A stretch of DNA of 39,734 nucleotides from Chloroflexia bacterium (lineage in GTDB: Bacteria; Chloroflexota; Chloroflexia; Thermomicrobiales; CFX8): positions 1 to 39,734 of the forward strand of contig JAUIIK010000037.1 of the NCBI GenBank assembly GCA_030431755.1, read 5' to 3'. Shown here piece after piece: positions 34,227-37,650 of the stretch (position 1 is the stretch's first letter; each line of letters opens with the position of its first letter). Position numbers and translations under genes: made by a program. The notes under the pieces were generated by a model. The model was not told the DNA's origin. It searched no databases and saw nothing but the letters and a program-made list of their open reading frames with translations.

Positions 34227-34979
34227 CTAGCGCCGCATGTTGACGTAGGCGAAGGACTCTGCGTGTTCCATGTCGCCCGCGCCGGGGTAGTGCATGTGCC
34301 GGGCAACGGCGGCGGTATCGCGCGCCCAACGGGTCACCGCTTCAAGCGGATCCCAGTCGCCGAGCTGGCTCTTGTGCTCGCGCAGGGACGCAGCTTTCTG
34401 TTCGAGGTAATCCGAGGTTTCGATGAAGTGATCGGCCCGGTCATTGCCGGTGCGCACGTAGACCTCGGTGACTTTGTGCGGCTCGTAACCCTCTTCGAGG
34501 AGATCCGGGAAGGTCAGGCGGTCACGGGCCGACGGGTAGATCGCGGCGAGCGTCGCCTCGCCCATCGCAACGTGGTCCGGGTGCTGGATGTAGCTGCCGA
34601 AGTATCGTGAGCCGGGGTCCTGACAGACGACGGCGTCCGGCTTGAAGTGACGGATTGCGCGGGTGATTGCTTTCCGCAATTCGAGGTCCGGCATCAGTTC
34701 GGCGTCCTTGAAGCGCAGGAACATGACCTCCTTGACGCCCAACGCATCGGCCGCGGCGCGTTGCTCAGCCTCCCGCGTCTGCATCAGCTTCTCGCTGTCG
34801 TAATCGGGATCGTCGCTGCCCTTGTCGCCGCTGGTGCCGAGGACGAAGAAGATCTCCTGCCCCTCGTCGGCCCACCGCGCTATGGTGCCGCCACAGCCGA
34901 ACTCGATGTCGTCCGGGTGAGCCATCGACACCAGCACGCGTCTTGGCCGGTCCTCGCCGCCGTTCGTTTCTGCGCTCAT
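34227..34979 (-). CDS. LmbE/PIG-L family N-deacetylase
   Basis: The 250-residue protein has zinc-site motif AHPDDIEFGCGG (H21, D23, D24) near the N-terminus and a second metal/active-site segment YIQHPDHVAMGEA. The family removes N-acetyl groups from sugars or thiol precursors (MshB and BshB are members) and includes many uncharacterised enzymes. The ATG at 34979 has AGGACAGGG ahead. It lies 66 bp downstream of aspS and 9 bp before the membrane-anchored gene. No other bacillithiol or mycothiol gene is seen. Confidence 0.88.
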   Translation of the reverse strand: MSAETNGGEDRPRRVLVSMAHPDDIEFGCGGTIARWADEGQEIFFVLGTSGDKGSDDPDYDSEKLMQTREAEQRAAADALGVKEVMFLRFKDAELMPDLELRKAITRAIRHFKPDAVVCQDPGSRYFGSYIQHPDHVAMGEATLAAIYPSARDRLTFPDLLEEGYEPHKVTEVYVRTGNDRADHFIETSDYLEQKAASLREHKSQLGDWDPLEAVTRWARDTAAVARHMHYPGAGDMEHAESFAYVNMRR

Positions 34980-35045: not shown

Positions 35046-36356
35046 CTATGGTTCCAGTCGCGTCATCGTCCTCGGAAAGAGCGTTACCTCGCGGACATTC
35101 TCGACGCCGGTTAGGCGTGCCACGAAGCGTTCGAGACCGATGGCGAAACCGCCGTGGGGCGGCATACCGTACTTGAACGCTTCGAGATAGCCTTCCATTC
35201 CGTCGGCGGTTAACCCCTTGGACCTCAGTGCCGCTTCGTAGTCGGCGTAGAGATGCAGGCGCTGACCTCCCGTCACAAGCTCGAGTCCCCGGAAGAGCAG
35301 GTCGAAGCCTCGGGAATAGCCGGGCCGCTCGGGGTCGTGGTGCGTGTAGAAGGGCCGCCTTGCCATCGGGTAGCCGGTGACGAAGAGCCACTCCGAGCCG
35401 TGTTCCCGCCGCGCCCACTCACCCAGCTCGCGTTCGTCGGCCGGCGCGAGGTCGGCGGCATCTTCGCCGGTATGGCCAAGCAGCTCCATTGCGTCGGTGA
35501 AGTGCAGCGCCGGAATCTCGGCAGGCACTTCAGGAAGCTCGATCTGGCCGGCTGTTGAAGTGCTACCGACTGCGGCAACCATCCCCGCGATGACGTCGCG
35601 CAGGACGCGCATCACGTCACGGTGATCTCCGATAAAGCCCAGCTCGGCGTCGAGCGACAGGTATTCGTTTAGGTGGCGGATCGTATCGTGCGGCTCGGCT
35701 CGGAAGACGGGCCCGACCTCGTAGACGCGCTCGTGGACGCCAATCATCATCTGCTTGTAAAACTGCGGGCTCTGCGCCAGATAGGCCTTGCGGCCGAAGT
35801 AGTCGAGCGCAAAGACATCCGCGCCGCTCTCGGTGGCTGAGCCGACGAGCTTTGGCGTGTAGATCTCGGTGAAGCCCGCGCCGTCCAGGGTCGCCCGGAA
35901 TCCGCGAACCAGTGCAGCAGCGATCTGGAAATATGCTCGGCGTGACGGGTGCCGGTTGGCGACGGTCGCATGGTCCAGCACCGTCGGCAGTCGGGCAGAT
36001 AGCTCGGGCATGAAGAGCTCGAAGGGCAGCTGTTCGTCTACCTCGGCCAGTACCTCGATCTCAGGCTGATGGACCTCGACGCCACCCGGCGCTTGCGGTT
36101 CCGCGACGACAGTTCCGCGCACAATCAGCACGGACTCATTGCCGAGCCCTGTTAGCCGCTCGCGTAGCGCGGGATCGTCGACAACGATCTGGGCTAGCCC
36201 GCTCTGATCCCGCAGGATCAGGAAACTGATCTTGCCGAGTTGCCGGTAACGGTGCAGCCACCCAGCGAGGGCGACGGATCTGCCGATGTGGTCGGCGAGG
36301 GATTTGGCCCGAACGCGGGCCGGGGTCAGACTGGAGCCGTGCTCGACAGCCTGCAT
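35046..36356 (-). CDS. aspS: Aspartyl-tRNA synthetase, archaeal/short type
   Basis: The enzyme has 436 residues, like archaeal AspRS, and lacks the GAD insertion of the ~590-residue bacterial form. The N-terminal OB domain binds the anticodon. Class II motif 2 is FRAEPHDTIRHLNEY and motif 3 is GMPPHGGFAIGLERF. At the two anticodon-domain positions known to separate discriminating from non-discriminating archaeal enzymes, it has His (H35, in GWLHRY) and Pro (P90, in QAPGG). Both fit a tRNA-Asp-specific enzyme. The ATG at 36356 follows AAGGAGGTG. A T-box leader precedes it. Confidence 0.95.
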   Translation of the reverse strand: MQAVEHGSSLTPARVRAKSLADHIGRSVALAGWLHRYRQLGKISFLILRDQSGLAQIVVDDPALRERLTGLGNESVLIVRGTVVAEPQAPGGVEVHQPEIEVLAEVDEQLPFELFMPELSARLPTVLDHATVANRHPSRRAYFQIAAALVRGFRATLDGAGFTEIYTPKLVGSATESGADVFALDYFGRKAYLAQSPQFYKQMMIGVHERVYEVGPVFRAEPHDTIRHLNEYLSLDAELGFIGDHRDVMRVLRDVIAGMVAAVGSTSTAGQIELPEVPAEIPALHFTDAMELLGHTGEDAADLAPADERELGEWARREHGSEWLFVTGYPMARRPFYTHHDPERPGYSRGFDLLFRGLELVTGGQRLHLYADYEAALRSKGLTADGMEGYLEAFKYGMPPHGGFAIGLERFVARLTGVENVREVTLFPRTMTRLEP

Positions 36357-36365
36357 GGGACACCT

Positions 36366-36624
36366 CCTTATGGAACGCAAAACCCCCTCGCCGTGTGGAC
36401 GAGGGGGGCGCTCGTGGTGCCACCACACTTCGCCGCCGCTTCGGAGGGTATGACGCGGCGGCCTCGGTTGCCGGATAACGGCGGCGGACCGGCGAGCCCT
36501 TGGTCGTAAGCGTTCAGGCTCGCGCTCGGGAGTGTCTTCGCGCCGCGCCGCTGTCCACCTCGCACCAACCGGTGGCTCTCTGTACGGCAGGCGTACCAAC
36601 GCTACTTGTCTCCGTCAACGCATT
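36366..36624 (-). ncRNA. T-box riboswitch leader of aspS
   Basis: The minus-strand leader has all the main T-box parts. Stem I is closed by GTAGCGTT (36605-36598) pairing with AACGCTTAC (36514-36506). Its upper part has AGAGAG and GGTTGGTGCGAGG, the usual distal loop text. The triplet GAC at 36536-36534 is a candidate specifier for tRNA-Asp. The T-box/antiterminator core GGTGGCACCAC lies at 36425-36415. A terminator stem (CCCCCTCG with CGAGGGGG, 36406-36383) and TTTT (36382-36379) follow. Uncharged tRNA-Asp should turn aspS on. Confidence 0.92.
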
Positions 36625-36947: not shown

Positions 36948-37553
36948 CTACGTTGCACCGTTGAGCTCCGCTCGCTTGAGCTGTGAGACCTCGCCTGAGA
37001 GGGCGCTGGCACGCGGTTGGATCTGGCCGGCGTACTTGTTGCCCTCCTTGGCGCGGTAGGGCACCTCGGCTGGGCTGGAGAGCTGCTCGAAGGTGAAGGA
37101 GCAGATCCGCATGCCTGGATAGAGTGCGACCGCCATCCGGCCGAGATTCGACAGTTCCATCGTCGCCGTGCCGAGCCAGCCGGGCTCAAAGACCGCGGCT
37201 GTCGAATGGACCGTAATCCCAAGCCGGGCGATTGACGAGCGGCCTTCGAGTCGGGCAACGAGCTCGTTGGAGAGCTCCAATGTCTCGATTGTTGAGGCCA
37301 GCGCGAAGTCGCCGGCCTGCATGATGAAGCGCTCGCCGTCCGGGATCTCGATAGTGCGCATGCCCTCGCCGATGGATTGCGGCTGGCGGGGATCGATATA
37401 GGAGTAGGAGGAGTGTTCGAAGACCATGAAGGTGTTGCCGAGCCGAAAGTCAATCGAGCATGAGCCCAGCGCGACATCGAGATCAGGGAATGGGTCGATC
37501 CGTATCGCGCCATCGTCGATATAGCGTTTGATGTCCCGGTCGGAGAGGATCAT
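36948..37553 (-). CDS. dcd: dCTP deaminase
   Basis: The 201-residue enzyme deaminates dCTP to dUTP and may also hydrolyse dUTP, feeding dTTP synthesis. Landmarks are MILSDRDIKRYI at the start, GRSSIARLG (104-112) and HSTAAVFEPGWLGTATMELSN with the catalytic Glu at 133. The usual TAGxxDPG is TAAVFEPG here. The ATG at 37553 fits the family; the long upstream frame to 37700 is non-coding. A promoter and palindrome lie upstream. Confidence 0.95.
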   Translation of the reverse strand: MILSDRDIKRYIDDGAIRIDPFPDLDVALGSCSIDFRLGNTFMVFEHSSYSYIDPRQPQSIGEGMRTIEIPDGERFIMQAGDFALASTIETLELSNELVARLEGRSSIARLGITVHSTAAVFEPGWLGTATMELSNLGRMAVALYPGMRICSFTFEQLSSPAEVPYRAKEGNKYAGQIQPRASALSGEVSQLKRAELNGAT

Positions 37554-37650
37554 GGGCCGCACACTTCCTTCGGATTCCGTTCGGCGTGACGTCGGACGTC
37601 GTTGGAGCCTTGTTGATGACGCGACGCCCGGCGAGGTCGGCAGCCGCATC

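Follow-up and report, generated by a model that had tools for sequence, protein, structure and literature searches.

An aspS gene of archaeal type in a Chloroflexia bacterium lies behind a candidate T-box, and the locus raises the question of which tRNA this leader senses and what the enzyme under its control is for. The window, by which we mean the whole stretch of DNA analysed, comprises 39,734 nt (GCA_030431755.1, contig JAUIIK010000037.1, positions 1-39,734, forward strand). The sole Rfam match returned by cmscan in the whole window was the T-box family RF00230, recovered over the full length of the model and above its gathering score (Table 1). A chance or degenerate leader was ruled out by this score combined with the covariation described below. 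In the covariance-model alignment the specifier region reads GAA-GAC-A, that is, an Asp codon upstream of an aspS gene, and this reading lends no support to an Asn specifier. The same model position was read in the nine other T-boxes of the genome and gave in each the codon expected for the downstream gene (trpE and trpS, UGG; leuS and leuA, CUC; ileS, AUC; a LysX-like gene, AAG; metG, AUG; pheS, UUC; thrS, ACC; the gene names are our reading of the translated downstream ORFs). The core of the leader reads GTGTGG-TGGCACC-ACGAG, and its UGGC bulge is complementary to the G73-CCA end of the single tRNA-Asp (anticodon GTC) detected in the genome. No sigma-70-like promoter was found by a simple scan.

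The leader carries two structures that are mutually exclusive, as the covarying antiterminator uses the arm of the terminator, the two having CTCG and CCACAC in common. The single terminator-like site of the region lies at 36407-36383 and is followed by TTTTG; the terminator scan alone is no evidence, because the mean for shuffled sequences is also about 1. The covariation is informative. Across 11 aligned AspRS2 leaders, the four named helices had standard pairs in 97.6% of cells, and nine pairs had changes on both sides, a number reached in none of 500 shuffles (shuffled mean 3.6). The two helices of the antiterminator hold seven pairs altered on both sides. Sliding the partner strand cut pairing to 36-55%, and the AGAC at the specifier was invariant.

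Table 1. Features of the aspS2 locus (window coordinates)
Feature	Position	Strand	Basis and details
T-box leader RF00230	36392..36627	-	100.4 bits (gathering score 93), E 3.6e-21, model positions 1-219 of 219
Specifier codon GAC (Asp), followed by A36533	36534..36536	-	Covariance-model alignment; invariant in the 11-leader alignment
T-box bulge TGGCACC	36416..36422	-	TGGC pairs with GCCA (G73-CCA) of tRNA-Asp
Antiterminator	36393..36428	-	Covariation; GTGTGG (36428-36423) with CCACAC (36398-36393), CGAG (36414-36411) with CTCG (36403-36400)
Intrinsic terminator, CCCCCTCG...CGAGGGGG + TTTTG	36378..36407	-	Terminator scan; folds at -20.5 kcal/mol
Shine-Dalgarno sequence AAGGAGGTG, strong	36361..36369	-	Read from the sequence
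aspS2, archaeal-type, predicted non-discriminating AspRS, 436 aa	35046..36356	-	Profile scores, Pfam, alignment
PIG-L/LmbE-family deacetylase gene, adjoining aspS2	34227..34979	-	Profile match
Gene for a protein with an N-terminal hydrophobic segment	33123..34217	-	Profile searches, no family match
dCTP deaminase gene	36948..37556	-	

The aspS gene starts at an ATG preceded by AAGGAGGTG; a 517-aa ORF from the TTG at 36599 was rejected as aspS, as it would translate the leader. The product scored 528.6 bits against NF003483 (cut-off 353) and 377.1 bits against TIGR00458 (cut-off 368.4), both titled 'aspartate--tRNA(Asn) ligase', and just 174-186 bits against bacterial aspS models whose cut-offs are 374-443. 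The GAD insertion of the bacterial type is absent, and Pfam recognizes only an OB-fold and a class II core. The nearest solved relative is AspRS2 of Thermus thermophilus (1n9w), and both proteins have His and Pro at aligned positions of the anticodon-binding domain where the discriminating AspRS of Thermococcus kodakarensis (1b8a) has Trp and Lys. We take His/Pro instead of Trp/Lys to be determinants of non-discriminating tRNA specificity, and the window enzyme is accordingly predicted to be a non-discriminating AspRS. The full T-box leader, the candidate GAC specifier and the archaeal type of the enzyme, all proposed in the initial annotation, were therefore borne out, whereas the unusual character of this combination and the shared downstream control, which it also proposed, were not, as detailed below.

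Overlooked in that annotation was the genomic background, namely a bacterial AspRS1 without T-box, the lack of a detected AsnRS or asparagine synthetase, and the presence of GatB. As the genome already has this bacterial AspRS1 (contig C194, 848.7 bits to NF001750), the window gene encodes a second AspRS, designated here AspRS2 (gene aspS2). No T-box was found beside AspRS1 in this genome, nor beside the listed AspRS1 positions in 12 further genomes of the class. The anticodon domain of AspRS1 shows the residues RRRDHGG and RPEG, as in the non-discriminating AspRS of Pseudomonas aeruginosa (4wj3), and differs from AspRS1 of T. thermophilus, which reads RRRDLGG. Neither AsnRS nor asparagine synthetase (AsnB) was found above cut-off in the genome, and both absences are provisional because the assembly consists of 272 contigs with a completeness of 97%. 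GatB was found, and the acceptor stem of tRNA-Asn begins with U1-A72, a pair by which GatCAB substrates have been flagged (PMC4206432). Asparagine thus appears to be made on tRNA only, through AspRS and GatCAB, and either AspRS could start this route.

Of the 61 genomes in the class, 11 have AspRS2 (>390 bits); AsnRS is among the hits of 335-361 bits, of which two were checked. Within the same order, AspRS2 was found in 6 of 23 genomes and AsnRS-like hits in none; the other 17 thus lack both, and AspRS1 alone can therefore suffice there. In every one of the nine genomes of the class with a readable leader (G000, G016, G028, G055, G013, G021, G059, G039 and G057), AspRS2 is preceded by a T-box, the covariance-model match being partial in G057 with the core present. 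Outside this readable set, AspRS2 starts at a contig edge in G047 and the sequence is masked in G024. G016 and 'Chloroflexi bacterium 54-19' (L025) have the same AspRS2 sequence, which assigns the class to Chloroflexota. The AspRS2 gene of G039 (L142, G039:C51:10548-11813) has an in-frame TGA, reflecting either a pseudogene or an assembly error. Among 80 loci from named GTDB genomes, the T-box core was present at most Chloroflexota loci and missing at three AspRS2 genes of the clade (L045, L052 and L053). In the tree, AspRS2 of Micromonosporaceae branches within the clade of Chloroflexota, beside the window enzyme (100/98), and the window enzyme is separate from AspRS2 of the members of its own family, G055 and G047. 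Transfer between phyla and repeated acquisition of AspRS2 are the simplest readings of this topology, paralogy being an alternative. Judged by eye, stem I is reduced in leaders of Catellatospora, and no terminator is evident there. At some loci of Clostridium and Chloroflexota (L067:3584-4000, L072, L063 and L038), AspRS2 is preceded by two antiterminator/terminator-like modules in tandem.

Read from the sequence, the leader with its specifier and its terminator/antiterminator pair, the enzyme class, the second AspRS and the lack of detectable AsnRS and AsnB point to a canonical transcription-attenuating tRNA-Asp T-box, which quite probably controls a spare AspRS2 beside an AspRS1 without T-box. 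From these elements we infer tRNA binding and the direction of regulation. When charged tRNA-Asp is short, uncharged tRNA-Asp would pair with the leader at two sites, by its anticodon GUC at the specifier GAC and by its G73-CCA end at the UGGC bulge; the antiterminator would then be stabilised, the terminator blocked and aspS2 switched on. AspRS1 would be the housekeeping enzyme, and AspRS2, being a patchy extra gene beside an AspRS1 without T-box, would be a spare induced by shortage of Asp-tRNA. A possible need for spare capacity is that all asparagine apparently passes through AspRS and GatCAB on tRNA.

The control might extend beyond aspS2, as the initial annotation had suggested in placing the LmbE-like (PIG-L) and membrane-anchored genes under the same T-box. 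The genes are on the same strand, aspS2 ending at 35046 and the PIG-L gene starting at 34979. However, the PIG-L gene and the next gene were found beside AspRS2 in no relative searched, and the gap between aspS2 and the PIG-L gene contains a strong GC-rich hairpin, though without T-run. Shared control of PIG-L is unsupported because this gene is not conserved next to AspRS2, and joint control of the three genes is considered unlikely. On the other side of the locus, the dCTP deaminase gene upstream of the T-box was not found beside AspRS2 in relatives. A common antibiotic-linked neighbourhood was also discarded, ten neighbour ORFs in five relatives having nothing in common.

A second question is whether the leader reports on aspartate or on asparagine. 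Within the Chloroflexota/Micromonosporaceae AspRS2 clade, 30 distinct leaders gave the specifier GAC, as did the Bacillota loci L063, L067, L072 and L078; four clostridial loci (L060, L062, L064 and L066) gave AAC (Asn). All readable AspRS2 leaders other than these four read GAC. The four AAC loci, alone among the loci searched, have a gatB gene some 2 kb downstream of AspRS2. The sample is small, three of the four AAC loci being close relatives, and the association between specifier and gatCAB is a modest new lead. A dual Asn/Asp codon, AAUGAC, seen in leaders of Ktedonobacterales and some Anaerolineae, was set aside: the window leader lacks the AAU, which is not conserved either, Ktedonobacteraceae L039 and Dictyobacter L044 having GAUGAC in place of AAUGAC.

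AspRS2 could serve specifically to start tRNA-dependent synthesis of asparagine, as it does in Thermus, with a T-box that serves asparagine supply and senses tRNA-Asn as well as tRNA-Asp. The name of the enzyme family, aspartate--tRNA(Asn) ligase, the non-discriminating residues and the failure to detect AsnRS and AsnB are consistent with such a role, as are the clostridial T-boxes with gatB downstream that read AAC. Moreover, the T-box bulge cannot tell tRNA-Asp from tRNA-Asn because both have G73 in this genome, and GAC could pair with tRNA-Asn (GUU) through one G-U pair, which counts against sensing of tRNA-Asp only; a T-box responding to two tRNAs is exemplified by lysK of Bacillus cereus (PMC2916919). 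Yet GAC is found in all readable Chloroflexota leaders and gatB is not nearby, AspRS1 also matches the non-discriminating enzyme of P. aeruginosa at the anticodon-domain positions, and 17 of the 23 genomes of the same order do with neither AspRS2 nor AsnRS. A leader devoted to asparagine supply therefore seems decidedly unlikely. It is very unlikely that AspRS2 is an inhibitor-resistant spare, taking over when a drug or bacteriocin blocks AspRS1, uncharged tRNA-Asp goes up and the T-box fires, since no biosynthetic or resistance genes were recognised in the ten neighbour ORFs sampled, although a divergent and patchily spread second copy under starvation control, also found in Micromonosporaceae, would fit it; this is a special case of the starvation-induced spare.

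Returning to a spare enzyme induced by Asp-tRNA shortage, we tentatively propose that the specifier of an AspRS2 T-box may report the physiological job of the enzyme, AAC standing for asparagine synthesis (with gatCAB) and GAC for a spare in aspartate starvation, and that the T-box-AspRS2 module may pass from Chloroflexota to Micromonosporaceae with the specifier kept and stem I reduced in some recipients. The specifier codon would then be a readable marker for which of two roles a non-discriminating AspRS plays, useful in organisms that may have no route to asparagine other than the one on tRNA.

The presence of a bacterial regulator on an archaeal-type enzyme, presented as remarkable in the initial annotation, has precedents. 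One of three aspS genes of Clostridium acetobutylicum is T-box regulated (PMC2494555), T-box control of an extra AspRS in this organism is attributed to Saad 2012 as cited in PMC4206432, and a second LysRS of archaeal type with a T-box is already known (PMC2916919). As in C. acetobutylicum, the genome has more than one AspRS gene and the T-box belongs to an additional one; unlike in C. acetobutylicum, the leader reads GAC, aspS2 is solitary and no gatB is nearby. Work by Saad from 2012 and 2013 reportedly tied the clostridial T-box to GatCAB and tRNA-Asn. The lysK gene of B. cereus (class I, archaeal-type LysRS1; PMC2916919) likewise has a T-box on a second synthetase beside a housekeeping one, the window case differing in amino acid and synthetase class. 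AspRS2 of T. thermophilus and Deinococcus radiodurans (1n9w; PMC4206432) is also an archaeal-type non-discriminating enzyme beside a bacterial AspRS1, and the window AspRS2 shares the His and Pro of 1n9w at aligned positions. However, the genomes of these two species also encode AsnRS (PMC4206432) and a discriminating AspRS1, whereas here AsnRS was undetected and AspRS1 has non-discriminating residues. Comparative analysis of the sequences confirmed the aspS2 T-box arrangement as real and conserved, yet of an already known type; the T-box control of a second AspRS of archaeal type now reaches into Chloroflexota.

Two of the other T-boxes are associated with tRNA genes. A complete gene for tRNA-Ala(GGC) sits inside the leuS T-box (specifier CUC), after the stem II/III region and before the antiterminator core, an arrangement for which no report was found in a literature search. 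It occurs in the genome studied here (L016:1229-1545, corresponding to C141:33728-34044) and at L166, L173, L176, L177 and L178, in six genomes of the class in all, spread over the same family, the order and another family. Finally, the thrS T-box (specifier ACC) is preceded, at a distance of about 15 nt, by a gene for tRNA-Val(GAC) in three members of the same family (L022:2944-3265, on contig C30 of the genome studied here, L167 and L172).
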